Positions 620 through 12,048 of a stretch of DNA of 12,048 bases are shown in pieces. The notes under the pieces were generated by a model. It had not been told where the DNA came from. It worked only from the letters and a program-made list of their open reading frames with translations, and did not search any database. The number at the start of each line of letters is the position of its first letter. Position 1 is the first letter of the stretch. Both the position numbers and the translations under genes were made by a program. Source of the DNA: a candidate division LCP-89 bacterium (GTDB lineage: Bacteria; Electryoneota; B3-LCP); the NCBI GenBank assembly GCA_025774735.1, contig JALGZU010000058.1, positions 1-12,048 on the forward strand, given 5' to 3'.

Positions 620-648
620 TTGACTTTCCATCTGAAAAGATGTATATT
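620..648 (+). promoter_or_regulatory. Sigma-70 type promoter for the LVIVD/FG-GAP operon
   Basis: TTGACT (620-625) and TATATT (643-648) are separated by exactly 17 bases. Transcription would start near 655, giving a leader of about 215 bases before the ATG at 870. The same -10 box and spacing recur in front of the other three transcription units of the window. Confidence 0.8.
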
Positions 649-670
649 AAAGGCTGAAAATCCTGCATGT

Positions 671-775
671 GCGTGGCCGACATCTGTGATTTGAGCGCGA
701 TATGGATTTGACCTGCAACCTGGGTGCAGGTCGCCTTGTCGGACAGGATGGAAAGGTCTGTAAGATGAAGGCGTA
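671..775 (+). promoter_or_regulatory. Candidate riboswitch-like leader RNA, copy 1
   Basis: This structured leader is homologous to 8098-8198. A closing helix CCGACA (677-682) pairs with TGTCGG (737-742). Within it a perfect 8-bp hairpin GACCTGCA (710-717)/TGCAGGTC (725-732) sits just 5' of the closing strand. A small 3' hairpin GTCT (756-759)/AGGC (769-772) follows. Sequence shared with copy 2 includes ATCTG near 682-686, GAGCG near 693, TTG.CGG at 736-742, and CTG..AA.ATGAAGGC at 758-772. Helices are kept with compensating changes (A680-T739 against G8107-C8166; T714-A728 against C8141-G8155). The AAGGC strand is also the 5' foot of the following terminator, so the RNA could choose between reading through and stopping. 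It does not resemble c-di-GMP, TPP, SAM, cobalamin, glycine or lysine riboswitches as I know them. An independent small RNA is the alternative. Confidence 0.65.
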
Positions 776-824
776 ATGAGGATTTATCTTCAGATAGGAT
801 AAGTCTAACTGCGCCTTTTTGTTT
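768..824 (+). terminator. Leader terminator (attenuator) upstream of the LVIVD gene
   Basis: AAGGCGTA (768-775) pairs with TGCGCCTT (810-817), with an inner hairpin around TATC-TTCA-GATA (786-797). It is followed by a T run (816-820) and a second TTTT after one G. It lies about 45 bases before the start codon of the downstream gene, with no convincing second promoter between them (TATAAT at 847-852 lacks a -35 box and would initiate inside the ribosome-binding site). The downstream genes therefore appear to depend on readthrough. Confidence 0.75.
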
Positions 825-869
825 TCTCGACGATCGTAAATGATGTTATAATCTCTGGGAGAATAGAAA

Positions 870-2495
870 ATGGATAAGAAAGTGCAAATCGCTTTGGCTG
901 TGGGGATGTTGACAGCTATAACAACATTCGCCCAGGACAGCCTGAATGTAACTAAAATCGGAGAACTTTCTCTACCTCTTGGCTATACCTATGGAGTCGC
1001 GGTTTTCGAGCCATACCTATATGTAGCCGATGGATCTGCCGGGCTGCGGATAGCAGACGTCTCAGACCCAACAGCGCCTGTTGAAGTAGGATATTGCCCT
1101 ACACCTGATAATGCCTATGGCGTGGCGGTTTCAGGATCATATGCCTACGTAGCTTGCAGTTATGGCGGCATGCTAATAGTAGATATTTCTGATCCAGCAA
1201 GGCCAACTGAGATTGGTCTCTGCGAGTTACCAGGCGGGGGTTCTGGCATAGCACTTTCAGGGTCGTACGCCTACCTTTCTGCTGGTGGCAGTGGTATGCG
1301 CGTAATTGACATATCAAATCCGGCGGCTCCTGTCGAAGTGGGGTACTGGATTGGATATGCCAATGGAGTTGCTGCTTCTGATTCATTTGTCTATGTGTCA
1401 CAAGGGATGTCCGGTTTGGTGGTAATTGATGTATCGAATCCGATTGCGCCTCTTGGGATTGGGTATTGTGGCACATCTGGTTATGCCAATGATGTAACGG
1501 TCTCGGGGATATATGCATACGTACCGAATAGTAATTTGGCTGTTGTTGACGTCTCCATCCCAACTGCGCCCATTGTCGTTGGGAGTTGCACAACACCAGG
1601 AGGAGGTACGTACGCTGCAGTTTCAGGGTCGTATGTATACTTGGCTGAGGGATGGGGTGGCGATCATCGAGTGATTGATGTTTCCGATCCGAATCTGCCA
1701 AGTGAGGTTGGTTATTATATAGAGCCCGGATACACCGAAGCTGTGGCTGTTTCCGGCTTGTACCATTATGTAAGTCATGAAACCTATGTGGGTGTCTACC
1801 AGTTCTCGCCGCCAGAGATCACCGTCACCCTAACCCCAGTTAATCCCCCAATCCAGCTCCCTGCTTCCGGTGGCTCCTTTGACTTCAACATCGAAGTGGC
1901 CAACACTGGAATGAATCCAGAGACTTTCGATATCTGGACGATGGTTACCCTTCCCAACAGCAGTGAATACGGGCCGATTATCAACGTGCCCGGCTTTACC
2001 GCTCCGGCGAGCTGGTCCGGCAATAGAGATAGAACTCAACTAATCCCAGCTGGCGCTCCTGCAGGTATGTACACCTATGATGGATATGTGGGAACCTATC
2101 CTGACGTAGTCTGGGACGAAGATCACTTCGATTTTGAGAAACTGACGGTTGGTGACGGTTCAACAGTGACAGAATGGGCTTGTTGGGGGGAATCCTTCGA
2201 GAAAGCTATACAACAACCGGGCGTCATTCCTGAAGAGATCTACCTATCTTCTGCATTTCCAAATCCGTTCAATCCGGCGACAACTATCCGCTATGGTCTA
2301 TCGCGAACATCAAACATCACAATAACCATCTTCGACGTCGCCGGACGTCTGGTAGCCACCCTGGTCAACGGCCACCGAGATGCCGGACACCACGAAATCA
2401 CCTTTGACGCGTCCAACCTGGCTTCGGGTCTCTACATCTACCGCATCGAGGCGGGCGATTTCATTGCCAGCAGCAAGATGGTGCTGTTAAAATAA
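870..2495 (+). CDS. Secreted LVIVD-repeat beta-propeller protein with T9SS sorting domain
   Basis: The 541-residue product starts at ATG 870, eight bases after GGGAG (857-861). Residues 1-22 are a signal peptide (likely cleavage after TTFA). Residues ~40-312 hold LVIVD-type propeller repeats: six clear copies of a unit of the form V[IV]D[IV]S.P..P.[EV][VI]G (near 60, 102, 143, 183, 223, 267) and a degenerate seventh, consistent with a seven-bladed propeller. Residues ~315-445 are the Ig-like module shared with the neighbours. Residues ~458-541 are the T9SS type A sorting domain (FPNPFNPATTI, FDVAGRLV, FDASNLASG, KMVLLK). LVIVD repeats are common in secreted or surface proteins, with structural or binding roles that are not well defined; no catalytic residues are visible. 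It lies 25 bases before the next gene and probably shares its transcript. The propeller part is visibly less GC-rich than the sorting domain, suggesting joining of segments of different origin. Confidence 0.92.
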   Translation: MDKKVQIALAVGMLTAITTFAQDSLNVTKIGELSLPLGYTYGVAVFEPYLYVADGSAGLRIADVSDPTAPVEVGYCPTPDNAYGVAVSGSYAYVACSYGGMLIVDISDPARPTEIGLCELPGGGSGIALSGSYAYLSAGGSGMRVIDISNPAAPVEVGYWIGYANGVAASDSFVYVSQGMSGLVVIDVSNPIAPLGIGYCGTSGYANDVTVSGIYAYVPNSNLAVVDVSIPTAPIVVGSCTTPGGGTYAAVSGSYVYLAEGWGGDHRVIDVSDPNLPSEVGYYIEPGYTEAVAVSGLYHYVSHETYVGVYQFSPPEITVTLTPVNPPIQLPASGGSFDFNIEVANTGMNPETFDIWTMVTLPNSSEYGPIINVPGFTAPASWSGNRDRTQLIPAGAPAGMYTYDGYVGTYPDVVWDEDHFDFEKLTVGDGSTVTEWACWGESFEKAIQQPGVIPEEIYLSSAFPNPFNPATTIRYGLSRTSNITITIFDVAGRLVATLVNGHRDAGHHEITFDASNLASGLYIYRIEAGDFIASSKMVLLK

Positions 2496-2520: not shown

Positions 2521-4509
2521 ATGAAACCTTGGAGTGTGATTTTAACGTTGTTTTTCATGGCACCGCTCGCCATGGCCCAGCCCACGCTGGAACCCGGCTG
2601 GCCGGTGCAGACCGGGTTTTCCGTTTCCCAATCCCCCGTCGCGGGCCAACTCGATGACGACGACGTCCTGGAATTCGCCATCGCTTCGCAGGATGGTTAC
2701 CTTTACGTCTTCAATCATGACGGCACCCTTGTCAATGGATGGCCGCAATACATGGGAACGGCGCTCTGGCCCGATCCCTATGCCAATATCTGCTCGTCCC
2801 CGGCAGTCTACGATATTAACGACGACGGTCTGAACGAAATCATCGTCGGCTGCTTCGACTCCTACATGTACGTCTTCAGCCGTGAAGGAAACCTCCTGCC
2901 GGGCTGGCCGTTCCAATCCGGATTTACCATCTTCAGCACACCGGCGCTGGGCGACATCGATGATGACGGCGAAATGGAGATCATCTACGGAGACAACTCC
3001 GGCGGCATCTACGCCCTGAATGTCGACGGCAGCGTCTGCACCGGATTTCCCTACCCGACGCCCTACGTGGTGCGTTCTTCACCGGCCCTGGGCGATCTCG
3101 ACCATGACGGGATCGACGAAATCGTCATCACGGCGGACAACAGCGATTATCACCTGTACGCCATCGATGGGGACGGATCCGACCTGCCCGGCTTTCCTAT
3201 CCAGTTCGCCAATGCCATCGGTTCGAACTCTTCACCCACTCTGGCCGATGTGGACGTCGACGGGGATCTGGAGATTGTCGTGGGAGACCGTTCCGGGTAT
3301 CTCCACGTCCTCCACCACGACGGCCAGTATCTTCCCAACTGGCCCATTGATGCCGGATACAGCCTGCAGAGCTGCCCCACGGTCGTCAACCTGGACGACG
3401 ATCCCGAGCTGGAAATCATCGTCGGCATGAACGATTCCCAGGTGATCATCTACGAAGTCGACGGGAGTTATTTCCCCGGATGGCCGCAGCCGACGGCCTA
3501 CACGGTGATCTCCTCGGCCTCGGTGGGTGACCTCGACGGCGATAATGAATTGGAAGTTGTGGTTGGCTGCAATACGGGTGAAGTGTACGGCTGGAATCTG
3601 GACGGTACGGCGGTTCCCGGTTTCCCCCTCACCGATCCCACCTACACGGTCTATTCCTCTCCGCTGCTGGAGGATCTCGATTATGACGGACATCTGGAGA
3701 TGGTTTTGGGCTGCAACGATACCTGGATTTACTGCTGGGATCTGGGCGCCAATACCTACAATCCTGATCTTTTGCCCTGGCCGCAATTCCGCCTGGATGC
3801 CCGCAACACGGCGGCCCTGATCATCGAACCGGAGATTGAGTTTGTCATGTACGGCCTAAATCCGCCGATCGTTATCCCTCCGATGGGAGGCAATTTTGAA
3901 TTTTTTGTCTCGTTGATGAGTTCCGAGACGTACACGCTGAATTTCGATGCCTGGGTGATGGTCACACTGCCCGATAGTACCCTCTACGGTCCAGTGTTGG
4001 GACCTGTTGACGTCGTTATGCCGGAAGGGCAGACCCTCGAACGGTACCGCATTCAGGAAGTCCCGGGCAGTGCTCCGGCCGGAGAGTACACCTACACAGG
4101 TTACGTCGGCTATTACCCGGATTATATCTGGGAAGAAGAGTCCTTCAACTTTACCAAATCGATCACCGGGGCTGGAGACGGTTGGGTCAGTCAATGGCTG
4201 AACACCGGCGATCCTTTTGAAATTCAGGCGGATCCGGCACCGCCCGCGGATTTCACCCTGCTGGAAAACTACCCCAATCCCTTCAACCTATCCACCACCA
4301 TCTCTTTCGCTCTGTCCGGCGCGGGCAAGATCAATCTAAGCGTATATGACATTTCAGGGCGGTTGGTGGCGACGCTTACCAACGGCTGGCGGGGTGCGGG
4401 GATGCACGAGGTCACCTTCGACGCATCCAACTTGGCTTCCGGCCTCTACATCTACCGCATCAAAGCCGGTGACTTCACCGCCGTCCGTAAGATGGTGCTG
4501 ATGAAGTGA
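2521..4509 (+). CDS. Secreted FG-GAP/VCBS-like repeat protein with T9SS sorting domain
   Basis: The 662-residue product starts at ATG 2521, six bases after AAGGGAG (2508-2514). Residues 1-19 are a signal peptide (cleavage after AMA). Residues ~38-432 hold eight repeats of about 47 residues. Each has an acidic calcium-type loop such as DINDDGLNE, DIDDDGEME, DLDHDGIDE or DLDGDNELE (starting near 43, 98, 145, 192, 243, 290, 337, 385), a strand like EIIVG, and a turn of the form DG...PG[WF]P. These features fit the FG-GAP/VCBS family of calcium-binding propellers, often found in adhesins and integrin-like proteins. Residues ~437-567 are the shared Ig-like module and ~578-662 the T9SS type A sorting domain (ENYPNPFNLSTTI, KMVLMK). 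The sixth loop (NLDDDPELE) lacks the usual glycine. The gene is the second of a two-gene unit behind the LVIVD gene. Function beyond surface binding or scaffolding is not evident. Confidence 0.92.
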   Translation: MKPWSVILTLFFMAPLAMAQPTLEPGWPVQTGFSVSQSPVAGQLDDDDVLEFAIASQDGYLYVFNHDGTLVNGWPQYMGTALWPDPYANICSSPAVYDINDDGLNEIIVGCFDSYMYVFSREGNLLPGWPFQSGFTIFSTPALGDIDDDGEMEIIYGDNSGGIYALNVDGSVCTGFPYPTPYVVRSSPALGDLDHDGIDEIVITADNSDYHLYAIDGDGSDLPGFPIQFANAIGSNSSPTLADVDVDGDLEIVVGDRSGYLHVLHHDGQYLPNWPIDAGYSLQSCPTVVNLDDDPELEIIVGMNDSQVIIYEVDGSYFPGWPQPTAYTVISSASVGDLDGDNELEVVVGCNTGEVYGWNLDGTAVPGFPLTDPTYTVYSSPLLEDLDYDGHLEMVLGCNDTWIYCWDLGANTYNPDLLPWPQFRLDARNTAALIIEPEIEFVMYGLNPPIVIPPMGGNFEFFVSLMSSETYTLNFDAWVMVTLPDSTLYGPVLGPVDVVMPEGQTLERYRIQEVPGSAPAGEYTYTGYVGYYPDYIWEEESFNFTKSITGAGDGWVSQWLNTGDPFEIQADPAPPADFTLLENYPNPFNLSTTISFALSGAGKINLSVYDISGRLVATLTNGWRGAGMHEVTFDASNLASGLYIYRIKAGDFTAVRKMVLMK

Positions 4510-4544
4510 CTGGGTAACAAGCGACGAACTAACTCGGTCTATCC

Positions 4545-4576
4545 GGGCATCCCGATACGTCGGGATGCCCTTTTTT
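4545..4576 (+). terminator. Strong intrinsic terminator after the propeller operon
   Basis: GGGCATCCCGA (4545-4555) pairs perfectly with TCGGGATGCCC (4560-4570) around a TACG loop, followed by six T. It lies 35 bases after the stop codon. Confidence 0.95.
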
Positions 4577-4640
4577 CATCCAGAACAATAATTCTTTCAC
4601 AAGCTCCGGTGAAAAAAAATCGCAACATAAGAAATATGAC

Positions 4641-4669
4641 TTGTATCTGCCTAAAAATTAACGTATATT
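4641..4669 (+). promoter_or_regulatory. Probable promoter of the protease gene
   Basis: TATATT (4664-4669) is preceded at 17 bases by TTGTAT (4641-4646), a weaker -35 than at the other three promoters. A start near 4676 would give a leader of about 78 bases. That leader has only a weak inverted repeat (GTTTGA 4693-4698 and TCAAAC 4725-4730) and no copy of the structured leader found in front of the LVIVD and TAXI genes. Confidence 0.6.
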
Positions 4670-4753
4670 ATATTACAGTAATCGGTCTCAGCGTTTGAAT
4701 GCGCATAAGCAGAGAAACAGATAATCAAACATGCGGTTCTAAGAGGAGAGAAA

Positions 4754-7700
4754 ATGAGGAAACTTGCACTACTGCTTTTGAGTCTGAGCCTGGCGGGTTC
4801 CGCCCTGGCCACCACCTTCACACCGGAACTGGTTGAGAAACTGAACGGCAGCTCGGACAACGAATTGATCCGCATCCTGATCACCTTTGAGGAGCAGGCA
4901 CAATTCAACTGGCTGGTCGAACAGACCGCCCGGATGAACAAGGCGGAAAGGCGCGCCTTCGTCGTCGACCATCTGAAACAGTTGGCCGAGTGGACGCAAG
5001 CCGACGTCAGGCTATACCTGGAAGACTGGGAAGCGGCTGGGAAGGTCCAGCATCTACGGTCAGTCTCCATCGTCAATCTGATGCACTGCCTGGCCACTCC
5101 CGAGGTGATTCGAGATTTATCGAATTACCCGGAGATCGCCGAAGTTGCCTATGATCCGGAGCGATTCATGCTGGATGAGGAAGCCCGACATGCCCGGCCG
5201 GCCGGAAAAGACGGGTTGGATGAAATCGCCTGGGGCGTCGCCGATGTTCACGCGCCTGAAGTCTGGCAGCAGGGATTCAGAGGCGCCGGTGCGCTGGTCA
5301 GCATCCTGGATACAGGTGTAAACTACAACCATGTTGATCTGGCCGACCACATGTGGGACGGCGGCGCGCAGTATCCGTATCATGGCTACGATTTCGCCAA
5401 TAACGACAACGATCCCATGGATCTGGGGCCGCTGGGACATGGGACTCATGTCGCAGGCTCAGTTGCTTCTGATGGTACAGCCGGTTCACAGTGCGGTGTG
5501 GCTCCTGATGCCACCATCATGGCCGTGCAGGTGTGGTCTGGCGCTGGCTACGGCAATATCGGAGATATGATTTCCGGCATTGACTTCTCCGTCGAGCACG
5601 GCGTCGATATCATCAACATGTCCGGGGGTATTGGTGGTGGCGGCAGCACCTCGGATAAACAGCAATTCCGCACCGCCTGCAATAACGCTCTGGTTGCCGG
5701 CGTGATCGCCAGCTTTGCTGCGGGCAATGAAGCGTACACTTCGCCCCCAAATTCGGTCCGTGTTCCCGGGAACTGCCCGCCACCCTGGCTGCACCCCGAT
5801 CAACTCCTCACTGGCGATATTAGCAACGTGGTTACCTGCGGAGCCACCCAATCCAACCACTCCATCGCATCCTTCTCGAGTCTTGGACCGGTCACCTGGC
5901 AGGACATCAGCCCCTGGTTCGATTACGCTTACAATCCCGGCATGGGATTGATCGATCCTGACATCTCCGCCCCCGGGGTGGACGTCAAATCCTGCCTCTA
6001 CAGCAACAACACCGGCTATACCTTCATGAGCGGAACTTCAATGGCTACCCCGCACGTCGCCGGAGCTATGGCACTGCTGCTGAGCAAGGACCCTAGCTTG
6101 ACCCCGGCCCTGATCGACATGTACCTGGAAACCTACGCCGAAGACCTGGGAGCCGTCGGTAAGGACAACATCTTCGGATCCGGCTTGATGAATGTCTACG
6201 ATGCGATTAACGCCATACCCGTCGGAACCGGCCCCTATCTGGTCGTGTCTGATAAAGAATTCGACGACATCGGCGGCAATAACAACGGCGCCCCCGATCC
6301 CGGGGAAACCTGCTCCATGATCGTCACGCTCTACAACGTCGGTCAGGGTGACGCCAGCAACATCGTCGGCACCCTCTCGACCACCGATCCTTACCTGACG
6401 ATTACCCAGACCGTCGCCAATTACCCCGATCTCTCCAATCTCGAACAGGGACAGGGTTCGCCGGCGTACCTGTTCGACGTCGATTCGGCCTGCCCACAGG
6501 GACAGTACGTCTCCTGCGATCTGCACGTCACCGCCGACAGCGCCTACACCACTGATATAGTCATCAATTTCGTGGTCGGCGATCCCGCCAACAGCCCTTC
6601 AGGACCCGATGCTTACGGCTACCTGGCCTACGATCCCTTCGATGCGCCCGAACTGCCGGTCTACGATTGGGTTGAAATCAGCGCCGATTCGGGCGGTCCC
6701 GGATCCCTGGTCAACTTCACCATGGATGACCAGGTCTTCCAGTACGTACTGCCTTTCTCCTTCCAATACTATGGCGCCGTGTTCGACACCTTTAGCGTGG
6801 CCGCCAACGGCTGGGTCGGTATGGGAGTTACCATCGATGATGATTACTCCAACTCGGGCATCCCCGACGCCGACGGGCCGCCCAACATGATCGCACCCTA
6901 CTGGGAAGATCTGTCACCCCAGAGGACCAATTCAGGCAAAGTCTGGATCTGGCAGGATATGACCGATCACCGCCTCATCGTCGAATGGAATCACATCGAA
7001 CAATATGCCCCCACGGGATCGTTCGAAACCTTCCAGGTCATCCTGCATGACCCCGTATACTATCCCACCGGAACCGGTGACGGACGCATCATCTTTCAGT
7101 ACAAGGACATGTCCACGACGGCTACCGGATCCGAAGGAACCATTGGCATCGAAAACGCCACCCAGACGGACGGCATCCAGTACTTCTTCGATGGCGGGTA
7201 TGATATGAACGCCCACCAGATCGAGGATGGGTTTGCCCTCCTCTTCACCACCCCTGCTGAAGCACCAGATCTGGTCGTCACCCTGACCCCCTACGGCACT
7301 CCCATCCAGATCCCGGCGGCCGGCGGCAGCTTCGACTTCAACATTGCCATCGCCAACAACGGAGTCAGTCAGGTGGTCGCCGACGTCTGGTGTGATGTAA
7401 CCCTGCCGAATGGTTCTCCCTTCGGACCGGTCCTCGGGCCGGTCAACCTGACCATGCCGGCCGGATTCTCTGGCAACCGGGACCGCACCCAGGACGTCCC
7501 CGAAGCTGCTCCCATAGGCATGTACAGTTACAACGCCTATGCGGGCACCTACCCGAACGTCGTACTGACCAGCGACAGTTTCCCCTTCGAGAAGCTGGCC
7601 ACGGGCGATGGCGTCTTGATTGAAGGATGGAACAACTACGGCGAATCGTTGGAAGCCTGGATGACGACAATGGCCGATGGGGTCGTCCCCGGTGAGTTCT

Positions 7701-7979: not shown

Positions 7980-8004
7980 AGGGCGACTTTCGGGTCGCCC
8001 TTTT
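7980..8004 (+). terminator. Intrinsic terminator after the protease gene
   Basis: AGGGCGAC (7980-7987) pairs with GTCGCCCT (7994-8001), loop TTTCGG, followed by TTTT and a second T-rich stretch. It starts 26 bases after the stop codon. Confidence 0.9.
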
Positions 8005-8050: not shown

Positions 8051-8079
8051 TTGACATTCTGTTTAAAAAATGATATATT
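8051..8079 (+). promoter_or_regulatory. Sigma-70 type promoter for the TAXI/DUF481 operon
   Basis: TTGACA (8051-8056) and TATATT (8074-8079) are separated by 17 bases in a very A/T-rich stretch. Transcription would start near 8086, about 18 bases before the structured leader RNA and some 235 bases before the start codon at 8322. Confidence 0.85.
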
Positions 8080-8097
8080 TGTTTATTAACCGCAATT

Positions 8098-8198
8098 GAT
8101 CGGCTGGCAATCTGCGGATAGCGAGCGGTAAGGGAGAACCCGCATCCTAAGGGTGGGTCACTTTGCCGGGATAGATTAAAAGCCTGCTAAATGAAGGC
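8098..8198 (+). promoter_or_regulatory. Candidate riboswitch-like leader RNA, copy 2
   Basis: This is homologous to 671-772 and has the same order of helices. The closing helix CTGGCAA (8104-8110) pairs with TTGCCGG (8163-8169). The inner hairpin ACCCGC (8138-8143) pairs with GTGGGT (8153-8158). The 3' hairpin GCCT (8182-8185) pairs with AGGC (8195-8198). From the start of the inner hairpin to ATGAAGGC the two copies have nearly the same length (about one gap) while many bases differ, and the paired positions change together. AAGGC (8194-8198) also forms the 5' foot of the terminator, so folding of the 3' hairpin would prevent termination. The ligand or signal is unknown. An independent ~160-nt RNA ending at the terminator remains possible. 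Confidence 0.65.
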
Positions 8199-8247
8199 AC
8201 GGTGGGACTCATACTCTGAGATGAGCTGGGTTCCATTGTGCCTTTTT
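8194..8247 (+). terminator. Leader terminator (attenuator) upstream of the TAXI gene
   Basis: AAGGCACGGTGG (8194-8205) pairs over 12 positions with CCATTGTGCCTT (8233-8244), including G-T pairs, with an inner CTCAT/ATGAG helix (8208-8212, 8221-8225). Five T follow (8243-8247), then G and TTTT. It lies 75 bases before the downstream start codon and has no gene upstream on the same transcript, so it acts on the leader itself. Confidence 0.85.
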
Positions 8248-8321
8248 GTTTTCACAGGATATACCCTAATAGAAAACTGTCATTTAGATTCTGCCCCATA
8301 AAATCTGAGGAAAACAAGGCC

Positions 8322-10670
8322 ATGTTGAAGACCAAATCACCTATTCTAATCATTGCAGCCGGATTGGGCGTTGCACTTGCACTTCTGCTCGCTACGTATT
8401 TCCTCCTACCATTGCGCGATCGGGGCCCCTGGGAGGTTACGATAGCTACGGGTACAGAAGGAGGTACATATTTAACGCTGGGGCAACAGCTTGCCCGGAT
8501 TTTGGTAAGGCTCCCGGAAATACAGGAAGCCACGGCTCGGGAGACCGCAGCTTCTGTTGAGAACATTCAGCTCTTGTGTGACTCTAAGGCAGATATCGCC
8601 TTCGTCTTCAATCCTGCACTTACCGATCTTCCGCAGGAAGAGCGCGAAAAGATCTGTGTTCTGGCTCGCTTATATACGGATGTTGTTCAGATCGTGGTGC
8701 GAAAAGATGCGGGAATCCAGAGTTTGACGGATTTGAACGGGAAGAAGGTCTATGTCGGCAAGAAAAAGAGCGGCACAAAAGTCATCGCTGAAGCCATTCT
8801 TAAAGCTCTTCAAATCTTCCCTTCCATGAAGGTAGATGAAGGCAAATATGAGCAGGCATCTCAAATGCTCATAAACGGGGAACTTGATGCGGTTTTTTTC
8901 GTTTCCGGAAAGCGTACAAAAGCTGTGAAGATGGCTCTCGAATCCGGGAAGTGCTATCTCCTGGACCTAAGCGATAGCCTCGTCAGAATCACCGAGAGCA
9001 ACCGTGATGTTTTTGTTGAGGAGATTCCGGCCAATTTCTATGCAAACCAGACAAAACCTGTACTAACAGTGGGTGCAGATGCACTCTTGATGTGTCGCAA
9101 AAATCTTAACGACAACTTAGCGCTTTTAATTCTGAATACTCTATTTGACAACATAGGTGATCTTCTAATTGCACATGCCAGAGCCCATGATATCAGGTTT
9201 GAGAGGGCTTTTGATAGGTTACCGAACAATGTAGAACTTCACCCGAGCGCCATAAAATTTCGGGAGAGGGAGCAGAAAGAACTGCTCATTGCTACCGGTG
9301 CATTCAATGGGAAATACCATGAGTTGGGTAAGACGATGCAAATGCTACTCGCCCAGTACGGTATTTCTGCCAGAGCAGTTCATACGGAGGGATCAATAGA
9401 AAACCTTTCGTTGCTCACACAGAGACCAACCTTAGCAATAATCCAGTATGACGTTGCTCTGGCCTCATATATGGGTAACCCTGAGTTTTCTTATGGGAAG
9501 AAAGAGTCCAGCACGGCTGAGATTGCCATACGAAAAGTTAGAAACATAAGGAGAATCGCAACCCTCCACCCGGAGAAAGTCCACATCATGATTCGGCGTG
9601 ATCAGCTTCCAAATGACATAGGGACACGGCCGACTGTCCAGGCTTTGAGGAATACCCATGTCTGTACCGGACCCGCAAATAGCGGCACGCGCATATTGGC
9701 CCAAGCCATACTCAAACACCACGATATAAACTTAAAGTCTCCCATTCCTCTCTCGGTTCCGGACATGTTGGATAGAATTAATAATGGCGAAATTGCGGCC
9801 GGATTTTTCGTCAGCCATGTGCCCAGCGAGGCGGTTAAAACAATACTAGACAACGAAGAAATCAGGCTTTTGTCTATCGAACCCAAAAAGATGACCAAAT
9901 TGGTTGGATCAGCTATAAGAGCGTCCAGGATAGCTGCCGTCAGATATGGATGCCAACTGGAGGGCGAGCCTGCGGTGGAAACGCTTGAAACAAGGGCCGT
10001 CCTGGTGACGACTGAAGACCTGCCGTTCAACGTCCAGACGATCACGGAGGCGGTTTTCGAAGGAGCTGGAATACTCGGCCTTGAAAAGGAGGCTATGGCC
10101 ACAGATCTTTCAATTCCTGTCCACCCAGAAGCACGCAAATACTACAAGAAGGCGGGTCTTATCCCTTCAAAGCCGCCCTTCGACTGGCTGGCTGCGGCGT
10201 GGCGCTCCCTGGCTTGCATCGTGATACTCGTAACTGGATACCGCGGGTTTCTCCATTGGGGACGGGAGAAAACGGCCAGACTCAGCCGCCAAAGAATTTA
10301 CGACGTATCTGTCAAGATGGGTGAACCGCATTCCGTGGAAAGATTGTTCAAAATTCGCCGTGATATTCGCGAGTGTATCAGAAAGAAATGGTGGCAAGGA
10401 GGCAAGCTGGATGAGGCGCGCCGGCGCAACCTGGAGAAACTGATTGCGGAAAGAATTAGTGACGCTCGAGCAGCTCTCACGACTGAGCTCCTGACGGAAA
10501 TCCGTACGGTGGCGAAGGATAAAGAGTTAGATCGTAAGGGGAAGCTCGAGAGTTTTACCTCTCTTGAGGAACAGATCTGGACGCACATAGAGAGTGGCGA
10601 ACTGAATGAATCCCAGCATGCTTTTTTAATGGGATTGATTCAGAACCAGAGAGCTGCGCTAACTCGTTAG
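8322..10670 (+). CDS. Membrane-anchored protein with two TAXI-type solute-binding domains
   Basis: I place the start at ATG 8322, preceded by GAGG at 8307-8310, giving 782 residues. A longer GTG start at 8238 would lie inside the leader terminator and hide the N-terminal membrane segment, so I reject it. Residues ~7-30 form a hydrophobic anchor or uncleaved signal. Residues ~37-310 resemble TAXI/NMT1-like periplasmic binding proteins (IATGTEGGTYLTLGQQLARI; NIQLLCDSKADIAFV; DLNGKKVYVGKKKSGT; INGELDAVFFVSG). Residues ~319-612 repeat the fold in diverged form (LLIATGAFNGKYHELGKTM; IENLSLL; CTGPANSGTRILAQAIL; INNGEIAAGFFVSHV). A second membrane segment lies at ~623-645, followed by a charged, helix-rich cytoplasmic tail (~646-782). 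Usual TAXI proteins have one domain of about 320 residues and serve TRAP transporters. No TRAP permease is encoded within this window, so a sensing role is possible but inferred. Base composition is lower in GC than in the T9SS genes. Confidence 0.85.
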   Translation: MLKTKSPILIIAAGLGVALALLLATYFLLPLRDRGPWEVTIATGTEGGTYLTLGQQLARILVRLPEIQEATARETAASVENIQLLCDSKADIAFVFNPALTDLPQEEREKICVLARLYTDVVQIVVRKDAGIQSLTDLNGKKVYVGKKKSGTKVIAEAILKALQIFPSMKVDEGKYEQASQMLINGELDAVFFVSGKRTKAVKMALESGKCYLLDLSDSLVRITESNRDVFVEEIPANFYANQTKPVLTVGADALLMCRKNLNDNLALLILNTLFDNIGDLLIAHARAHDIRFERAFDRLPNNVELHPSAIKFREREQKELLIATGAFNGKYHELGKTMQMLLAQYGISARAVHTEGSIENLSLLTQRPTLAIIQYDVALASYMGNPEFSYGKKESSTAEIAIRKVRNIRRIATLHPEKVHIMIRRDQLPNDIGTRPTVQALRNTHVCTGPANSGTRILAQAILKHHDINLKSPIPLSVPDMLDRINNGEIAAGFFVSHVPSEAVKTILDNEEIRLLSIEPKKMTKLVGSAIRASRIAAVRYGCQLEGEPAVETLETRAVLVTTEDLPFNVQTITEAVFEGAGILGLEKEAMATDLSIPVHPEARKYYKKAGLIPSKPPFDWLAAAWRSLACIVILVTGYRGFLHWGREKTARLSRQRIYDVSVKMGEPHSVERLFKIRRDIRECIRKKWWQGGKLDEARRRNLEKLIAERISDARAALTTELLTEIRTVAKDKELDRKGKLESFTSLEEQIWTHIESGELNESQHAFLMGLIQNQRAALTR

Positions 10671-10729: not shown

Positions 10730-11509
10730 ATGATAAAAAGGATTGTTCGAAAACTAGTAATTGGAACCTCCTTGATGGCGTTCCTTTTATTAGATCCCGG
10801 ATCGATCATTCAGGCGCAAGTCGACACCGAAGCCATGCGGGAATCAAGCATCGAGGAAGGCTGGAAGACGACGCTCTCGCTGAATGCGCTGGCTCAACAG
10901 GGGAATACCGAGGTATTATTCTTCGACACAAAACTGCGATTTGATTACCGGGCGGCAAAACTCCATATCTTCTTCTGCGCCAGTTTGCAGTACGGCGATG
11001 AAAGTGAGGAAAGATTTATCAATGAAGGCTTCATGCACCTGCGCTGGGTACGTTCGCTTGATTCCCGTTTTACCGTTGAAGTTTTCGTCCAGAATGAGTT
11101 CGATGACTCCATTCTTCTGGAAAAGCGAAGGCTGTTGGGTGGTGGCCTCCGGACACTCATTTTAGAAGCAAATAAGATAATTCTTCATATGGGAAACGGT
11201 TTTATGATCGAGCATGAAGATTATACCGATCCCGCCGAGGAAGATAAGAGGCTCTTGCGTTCGACAAATTATTTAACCGGAGAATGGTGGCTCGATGATA
11301 GAATCCAAATTTATTTGACTACATACTTTCAACCGAACGTGGAATCCATATCTGATTACCGCGTCCTATTGAGCAATGGATTGGAATTCAAATTAACTGA
11401 TTTATTATATGCAAATATTAAACTGGGATATAGATTTGACAGTGAACCTCTAAGGGGTATCAAGAAATATGATATCGAAACGGTAAACGGGCTTAGCCTT
11501 ACTTTCTGA
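10730..11509 (+). CDS. DUF481-like outer-membrane beta-barrel protein
   Basis: The start is ATG 10730, five bases after AGGTGA (10719-10724). An in-frame GTG at 10721 lies within that ribosome-binding site and is less likely. The product has 259 residues. Residues 1-~31 are a signal peptide with a lysine/arginine-rich start (cleavage after IQA). The rest alternates polar and hydrophobic residues with many aromatics (WKTTLSLNALAQQGNTEVLFF, FFCASLQYGDESEERFINEG, YANIKLGYRFDSEP) and ends in phenylalanine (LSLTF), typical of a beta-barrel inserted by the BAM complex. The opening segment with GNTE and the regular strand pattern resemble the DUF481/YdiY family, whose role is poorly defined. It begins 59 bases after the TAXI gene with no terminator between, so the two are probably co-transcribed. 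Confidence 0.75.
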   Translation: MIKRIVRKLVIGTSLMAFLLLDPGSIIQAQVDTEAMRESSIEEGWKTTLSLNALAQQGNTEVLFFDTKLRFDYRAAKLHIFFCASLQYGDESEERFINEGFMHLRWVRSLDSRFTVEVFVQNEFDDSILLEKRRLLGGGLRTLILEANKIILHMGNGFMIEHEDYTDPAEEDKRLLRSTNYLTGEWWLDDRIQIYLTTYFQPNVESISDYRVLLSNGLEFKLTDLLYANIKLGYRFDSEPLRGIKKYDIETVNGLSLTF

Positions 11510-11531: not shown

Positions 11532-11577
11532 GGGGCAGACCTCCAACAGGTTAGTCCCTTCTGGATGTGCCTGCCCT
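11532..11577 (+). other. Imperfect hairpin downstream of the barrel gene
   Basis: GGGCAG (11533-11538) pairs with CTGCCC (11571-11576), optionally extended by G11532-T11577. Inside, CCA/TGG and AGG/CCT helices are separated by small loops. There is no T run, and the true terminator follows 11 bases later. It may protect the 3' end of the mRNA or be a degenerate repeat. No function can be assigned. Confidence 0.45.
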
Positions 11578-11587
11578 GAGACTTTAG

Positions 11588-11609
11588 AGCCCCCTTCAGG
11601 GGGCTTTTT
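11588..11609 (+). terminator. Intrinsic terminator after the TAXI/DUF481 operon
   Basis: AGCCCCC (11588-11594) pairs perfectly with GGGGGCT (11599-11605) around a TTCA loop, followed by five T. Confidence 0.95.
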
Positions 11610-11620
11610 AAATTCTCATA

Positions 11621-11646: not shown

Positions 11647-11715
11647 TACCGCTTAATTGGAATCCAAAACCTCAACCGGCAAGAGTATTATTTTTCACAT
11701 ATTCCGGCAAAGATA

Positions 11716-11744
11716 TTGACATCCGTCGTTTAATTTCATATATT
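11716..11744 (+). promoter_or_regulatory. Sigma-70 type promoter for the cytochrome gene
   Basis: TTGACA (11716-11721) and TATATT (11739-11744) are separated by 17 bases. Transcription would start near 11751, giving a short leader of about 63 bases. Confidence 0.85.
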
Positions 11745-11754
11745 TCACTGTCCC

Positions 11755-11808
11755 GGTGCTTGGCTGATGAAACGGTGTGGAAGCACCTCCAGATAAACTG
11801 ATGGAGGT
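11755..11808 (+). promoter_or_regulatory. Leader with alternative hairpins, one masking the ribosome-binding site
   Basis: GGTGCTT (11755-11761) can pair perfectly with AAGCACC (11781-11787). ACCTCCA (11785-11791) can pair perfectly with TGGAGGT (11802-11808), which contains the GGAGG ribosome-binding site of the cytochrome gene. The two helices share bases 11785-11787, so they compete or stack with partial loss. The second form would block translation. This is a plausible translational switch; signal and direction are unknown. Confidence 0.5.
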
Positions 11809-11813
11809 TCTTC

Positions 11814-12048
11814 ATGAAAGTGGCTTCTATTTATCTGTATAGCATATCATCCCTGGCTGCTATCGCGTTCATGTCCCTATCTGTCTGGGCCGATCCCGTC
11901 CCCACGACCATTGACGACTTCTTCCTGCCCGGTTCACAACCAGATCAATCCGGTAGTTTCCAGTCGCCCAACCAGTGTGATAACTGCCACGGCGATTACG
12001 ATCTGACGGCTGAACCCGCTTTCAACTGGCGTGGCGGCATGATGTCGC
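11814..12048 (+). CDS. c-type cytochrome, N-terminal part (truncated by window edge)
   Basis: ATG 11814 follows GGAGG (11803-11807) by six bases. The visible 78 residues begin with a signal peptide (1-26, cleavage after VWA), so the protein is exported and heme is attached in the periplasm. Residues 55-59 are CDNCH, a CXXCH heme-c attachment site, followed by an acidic stretch and FNWRGGMM, a context I associate with multiheme cytochromes of uncultured FCB-type bacteria. The number of further hemes cannot be seen. It has its own promoter and leader, separate from the preceding operon. A role in extracytoplasmic electron transfer is likely; the partner is unknown. Confidence 0.8.
   Translation, partial: MKVASIYLYSISSLAAIAFMSLSVWADPVPTTIDDFFLPGSQPDQSGSFQSPNQCDNCHGDYDLTAEPAFNWRGGMMS

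Follow-up and report, generated by a model that had tools for sequence, protein, structure and literature searches.

The closest described RNA is the NMT1 motif, a xanthine riboswitch, which in the available part of its report (PMC7373994) has two stems and was probed as a 53-base RNA. According to that same part (PMC7373994), the motif occurs exclusively in Proteobacteria, acts through control of the ribosome site and is accompanied by almost no terminators. As there described, it shares one feature, that of a structured RNA positioned before genes for NMT1-type binding proteins, with the second of two RNA copies in a 12,048-nucleotide stretch of DNA (the window) from a candidate division LCP-89 bacterium. 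The differences from the motif, to the extent that the same source describes it, are that the present element is about 165 bases long with a terminator and no Rfam match, that its first copy is without a binding-protein gene, and that the nearest named relatives of the proteins encoded here are not from Proteobacteria. The element has the look of an RNA switch of a kind not recorded so far, for which two copies are too few to serve as proof; what is present is a real, duplicated and folded RNA without an Rfam match, most likely an attenuator leader. A literature search on riboswitches with TAXI or solute-binding proteins, on Zixibacteria and on c-di-GMP riboswitches found nothing related.

The two copies, A (655-825) and B (8086-8252), are both on the plus strand and are homologous almost end to end. 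With A as query nhmmer matched B at 8092-8251 (E 2.7e-8, 12-kb window), with B as query it matched A at 669-824 (E 1.1e-7), and the score of their local alignment was reached by none of 1000 dinucleotide shuffles under either of the scoring schemes. The likeness of 8098-8198 to 671-772 from which the initial annotation set out is, by the first of these E values and by the shuffles, one of homology. The alignment that it drew holds while its extent does not, the unit being longer with a promoter at 8051-8079 and RNA from about 8086 to 8252. Alignment of the conserved parts with MAFFT gave 121 columns with few gaps, and the match extends through the terminator hairpin and the U-run, with TTTTTGTTTT in common. 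Each copy consists of about 115 conserved bases, the last of them being ATGAAGGC, followed by a hairpin of 50 (A) or 51 (B) bases and a U-run, giving an RNA of about 165 bases. The promoter boxes and the spacer are also alike in A and B, unlike the stretch from U-run to start codon, which is 44 bases in A and 69 in B and poorly alignable between them. Upstream of each copy is the terminator hairpin of the preceding operon, at 533-560 for A and 7980-8001 for B. An unfiltered search of the window with a model without the hairpin (R1) gave A and B at 133.6 and 125.8 bits and the next match at 6.3, so no further copy is present there. In the same search the region 4510-4753, upstream of the subtilase gene that lies between both operons, was without the element. 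Feature coordinates are in Table 1.

Table 1. Coordinates and basis of the features of copies A and B and of the genes behind them; pairing values are predicted probabilities
Feature	Coordinates	Strand	Basis
Promoter-like site of A, TTGACT-17-TATATT	620..648	+	Consensus scan 10/12; boxes and spacer resemble those of B
Promoter-like site of B, TTGACA-17-TATATT	8051..8079	+	Consensus scan 11/12; TG before second box
Conserved part of A	655..772	+	Aligned with 8086-8198; start inferred from -10 box
Conserved part of B	8086..8198	+	Aligned with 655-772
Outer stem of the initial annotation in A, 677-681/738-742	677..742	+	5 pairs possible in both copies, 1 compensated; pairing 0.02
Outer stem of the initial annotation in B, 8104-8108/8165-8169	8104..8169	+	Pairing 0.00
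Stem S2 in A, 698-702/737-741 and 704-705/734-735	698..741	+	7 pairs possible in both copies, 1 compensated; pairing 0.36
Stem S2 in B, 8126-8130/8164-8168 and 8132-8133/8161-8162	8126..8168	+	Pairing 0.83 and 0.99
Hairpin P4 in A, 711-716/726-731	711..731	+	6 pairs in both copies, 1 compensated; pairing 0.99
Hairpin P4 in B, 8138-8143/8153-8158	8138..8158	+	Pairing 0.87
Putative terminator of A, 50-base hairpin (768-817) and U-run	768..825	+	-20.2 kcal/mol, reached by 1/1000 interior shuffles
Putative terminator of B, 51-base hairpin (8194-8244) and U-run	8194..8252	+	-31.1 kcal/mol, reached by 0/1000 interior shuffles
Gene after A: LVIVD repeats, type IX sorting tail	870..2495	+	Pfam
Second gene after A, 25 bases on: FG-GAP repeats, type IX sorting tail	2521..4509	+	Pfam, spacing
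Gene after B: two TAXI solute-binding domains, 782 aa	8322..10670	+	Pfam NMT1_3 twice, TRAP_TAXI twice
Second gene after B, 59 bases on: DUF481 protein	10730..11509	+	Pfam, spacing

Comparison with the 4227 families of Rfam 15, among them those for c-di-GMP, c-di-AMP and cobalamin, gave no match at the gathering cut-off, either for the window or for each element separately, and the best of the matches listed were below cut-off and located elsewhere or mostly in the hairpin. One such sub-threshold match, to suhB (32.4 bits with a cut-off of 41), is at 11548-11620 at the end of the TAXI-DUF481 operon and is probably that operon's terminator hairpin. A tRNA or tmRNA was ruled out by ARAGORN, which found 0 genes in the window. 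A leader peptide was also discarded, since by eye the frame opened by ATGAAGGC is of 3 codons in A and long in B, and no peptide appears to be conserved.

Conserved folding of the element is likely, though no single stem is proven by covariation, because shuffled alignments reach both the pair counts and the helix-level measures. For the conserved part the consensus fold has an energy of -25.45 kcal/mol as against -12.5 +/- 3.1 for column shuffles, with 0 of 300 as low. Folded as a single sequence and compared with 200 shuffles, B has a z of -3.65 (0/200) and A one of -2.09 (5/200). The pair counts of the three structures tried were matched by 126, 124 and 70 of 500 shuffles, and the observed values of the helix-length and covariation measures were reached by 93, 244, 85 and 33 of 1000 column shuffles. 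Covariation from two sequences alone is not significant. The selected RNA structure that had been claimed from the sequence keeps the backing of the consensus energy and loses that of the pair counts, which in two sequences do not rise above shuffles. The covarying pairs cited for it, A680-T739 becoming G8107-C8166 and T714-A728 becoming C8141-G8155, are present; as evidence they are weak, 124 of 500 shuffles doing equally well.

As they draw on one and the same 3′ strand, the outer stem and S2 are alternatives, and the compensated change at 739/8166 suits either of them, so it cannot discriminate between them. In the full-length RNA the mean pair probability of S2 is 0.36 as against 0.02 for the outer stem in A, and 0.83 as against 0.00 in B, so that the helix to which A680-T739 was assigned is outcompeted by the better-predicted S2. 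Of the stretches that had been described as unpaired, TTG.CGG and ATGAAGGC are no plain loops: TTG.CGG is the 3′ stem strand that the two alternatives share, and AAGGC forms the terminator's 5′ foot, so that neither of these is unpaired.

The hairpins at the ends of the two elements are read as intrinsic terminators on the basis of their fold and U-run. The terminator consensus scan, which wants short uninterrupted stems, listed neither of them; the lengths of four further terminator hairpins of the window, as folded, are 20-28 bases. The arms of the two element hairpins are mostly diverged, with 11 of 25 positions identical in the 5′ arms and 15 of 25 in the 3′ arms. With the arms aligned ungapped from the foot, pairing is kept in both hairpins at 14 of the initial 18 positions; of these 14, both partners have changed at 3 and one partner at 5.

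The sites preceding A and B are both sigma-70-like with an identical spacing of 17. Scanning the region of A gave 1 site, and since shuffles yield 0.7 on average this is not above chance and the scan alone is weak for A; the region of B gave 4 sites with 1.0 in shuffles. There is also a promoter-like site (9/12) at 8277-8304, between the terminator of B and its gene, and by eye a TATAAT at 847-852 before the gene behind A with a weak first box. At the usual distance from second box to start, transcripts from 847-852 or 8277-8304 would begin about 11 bases before the start codon. By the same start-site rule the sole promoter-like site whose transcript retains the ribosome site is, for each copy, the one upstream of the RNA, and readthrough from this upstream promoter is preferred because the intervening sites would cut off the ribosome site. 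Among six starts judged by eye, good ribosome sites are found at 870, 2521, 4754, 8322 and 11814. Further along, at 11714-11813, is, by eye, another TTGACA/TATATT promoter with a leader of about 60 bases containing two small hairpins; the gene behind it, which starts at 11814, has a CxxCH motif, and the R1 search found no copy of the element in that region.

It is rather probable that one cis-acting transcription-attenuation leader RNA is present twice, as A and as B, each time controlling transcription into the operon behind it. Transcription would begin at the promoter before the RNA, as its sites suggest, and the first 115 or so bases would fold around hairpin P4 and stem S2, for which there is support. 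The long hairpin with its U-run would then, going by its fold, halt RNA polymerase by default, and a small-molecule or protein input may determine whether readthrough occurs. With S2 formed, AAGGC would be free for the terminator and expression would be off; with S2 open, CYUU would hold AAGG and expression would be on. Pairing of the 3′ strand of S2 (CYUUGYCGG) with the terminator foot (AAGG) is possible by sequence in both copies and is predicted by folding only in A. When A is folded as far as 772, 734-737 is predicted to pair with 768-771 (0.87), and S2, whose probability is 0.64 on folding to 745, drops to 0.02; once the RNA of A is complete, the terminator is predicted to form and S2 to return to 0.36. 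In B the corresponding CUUU/AAGG pairing has a probability of 0.00 and the predicted partner of AAGGC, for as long as the terminator has not formed, is instead 8182-8185 (0.93). The predicted antiterminator is therefore not conserved, as the AAGGC of B has another predicted partner. What the predictions suggest is a switch by which AAGG may be held either by the S2 strand or by a neighbor, with the predicted partner differing in each copy. The conservation of CYUUGYCGG and ATGAAGGC would be explained if such a switch needs them.

Domain searches were with Pfam for six proteins of the window and with NCBIfam for five. The product behind B had been said to contain solute-binding domains, and it does, two of them being of the TAXI type by Pfam NMT1_3 and NCBIfam TRAP_TAXI; it also matches Pfam NMT1. 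Its start at 8322 is preferred over that of a longer ORF from 8238 because of the ribosome site and a database entry of 782 residues. With hydrophobicity judged by eye, the protein begins with a hydrophobic stretch, which is followed by both TAXI domains, another hydrophobic stretch and a charged tail some 130 residues long, and no transporter membrane gene beside 8322-10670 is present in the window; the protein looks more like a membrane sensor than a free transporter subunit. Its nearest named relative is from bacterium SM23_57 (62% over 75%), and those named among the 92 relatives listed include Gemmatimonadota, KSB1 and Fidelibacterota, while for the subtilase the nearest is from a Candidatus Zixiibacteriota bin (69% over 61%). 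A domain of about 110 residues before the sorting tail is common to type IX-sorted proteins of the window (7262-7660 and the genes at 1, 870 and 2521), and no Pfam model matched it. One genome, G748, which is alone in its phylum, has this domain at 56% identity. A search with the subtilase domain gave sorting tails in 17 of 80 genomes at E 1e-12 and in 6 of 69 at E 1e-20.

The idea that the RNA senses a compound related to what the TAXI protein binds is unsupported, because A precedes genes for LVIVD and FG-GAP proteins and, by Pfam, has no TAXI or other binding-domain gene behind it; the TAXI ligand was rejected as the signal on that ground.

A third copy that convinces was found neither in the genomes, plasmids, phages and viral contigs searched nor at the TAXI loci, though diverged copies could be missed. 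The homology search across genomes proposed with the initial annotation, as run with R1, leaves the element known from A and B alone. The genome sets overlap, and those of more than 40 genomes were searched under stricter filters. At E 1 there was no match in whole-genome sets of 13 and 1, and none at E 0.1 in sets of 64, 298 and 192; other sets gave matches in 3 of 40 (E 0.39-0.55), 1 of 245 (E 0.024) and 1 of 386 (E 0.094). The four places in the sets of 40 and 245 (E 0.024-0.55) were taken as chance, the best of them being, by eye, within an apparent protein-coding frame. A first pattern scan gave at least 120 matches. Among the matches listed, the 81 + 64 = 145 viral-contig loci searched with R1 yielded 2 and 8 matches (best E 0.089), the 8 from the set of 64 being partly forced by the pattern used to fetch those loci. 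The plasmids and phages contained short pieces covering 13-18% of the query (E 0.2-0.7), and in the 59 loci searched around TAXI relatives there were 3 matches, with E values of 0.45-2. Upstream of three double-TAXI relatives (L001-L003), 551 bases scanned contained no plus-strand promoter-like or terminator-like site, which with the blank from R1 means that over that distance the RNA is not associated with the TAXI family. In a control with 4 Mb of random sequence, A alone finds B at E 9e-6 with the hairpin and at 0.081 without it. A query without the hairpin thus barely finds B, and as R1 is of this kind the blanks for third copies are weak.

The reading as a leader draws on a homology that spans the entire unit, hairpin included, on similar promoters and on the start of an operon with a ribosome site 44 or 69 bases on, as well as on a consensus fold below 300 of 300 column shuffles and on hairpin length kept at 50/51 despite changed letters. 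Counting against it are the restriction to two sequences with pair counts that shuffles match, a predicted antiterminator that B does not share with A, the promoter-like site at 8277-8304 and the TATAAT at 847-852 between terminators and genes, the lack of a copy before double-TAXI genes of other lineages in the R1 search, and the ending of the conserved unit at the U-run, as is also expected of a free-standing RNA gene. That last point leads to the suggestion, which is unlikely but deserves weight, that a free, trans-acting small-RNA gene of about 165 bases is present in duplicate as A and B and that the genes behind them use other promoters. Such a gene would be a complete transcription unit with its own promoter and terminator kept with the RNA, as is seen, and the long, strong terminator hairpins, an antiterminator that is not conserved, the unlike proteins encoded by the two downstream operons and the site at 8277-8304 all suit it. 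It does not account for both copies being 44-69 bases before an operon on the same strand, and by the start-site rule the possible intervening promoters on which it depends would yield transcripts that begin some 11 bases short of the start codon and lack the ribosome site. The leader reading is favored over duplication of a small-RNA gene.

Even if A and B are leaders, what acts on them could be an RNA-binding protein or a processive antitermination factor instead of a metabolite. This branch of the leader reading, weighed as a part of it, we regard as improbable: strong hairpin terminators leave a 4-base antiterminator little room to win alone and both operons encode envelope or surface proteins, but neither a gene for such a protein nor a known binding motif was found with Pfam for six and NCBIfam for five proteins of the window. 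That the pair is just an old duplicated promoter-terminator stretch without a regulatory role is very doubtful, since its hairpins have been kept at 50/51 bases with letters changed yet paired and its folding is below 300 of 300 shuffles, though the knowledge of two copies only and pair counts not above shuffles would be in keeping with it.

Returning to attenuation leaders, a more specific and quite tentative proposal, which we hold as a possibility with the balance somewhat against it, is that with A and B an as yet undescribed class of transcription-controlling sensor RNA, from a lineage without cultured members, has its first two representatives. They would respond to one common signal, for instance a second messenger and not the TAXI ligand, and would tie together an envelope-anchored tandem TAXI protein and surface proteins secreted by the type IX route. 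If A and B do represent a leader class, one RNA would unite unlike operons for exported proteins in a regulon of bacteria that no one has in culture, the common signal could be sought directly, and tandem TAXI proteins would gain a regulatory clue. If they are instead a small-RNA family, it is still of an RNA without an Rfam entry. With two copies the weight of the finding is limited in either case.

From the perspective of known terminating riboswitches and attenuator leaders, the order of promoter, folded conserved part, intrinsic terminator and then operon is the same here, with the differences that no sequence of an Rfam 15 family is shared and that the predicted antiterminator differs between the copies. 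Orphan riboswitch candidates, as far as the available part of a review (PMC10043782) describes them, rest on many sequences while here there are two, from one contig; what the element has in common with them is that a conserved RNA of rare occurrence stands before genes whose products are dissimilar, and the same part of that review expects thousands of riboswitch classes that have yet to be seen.
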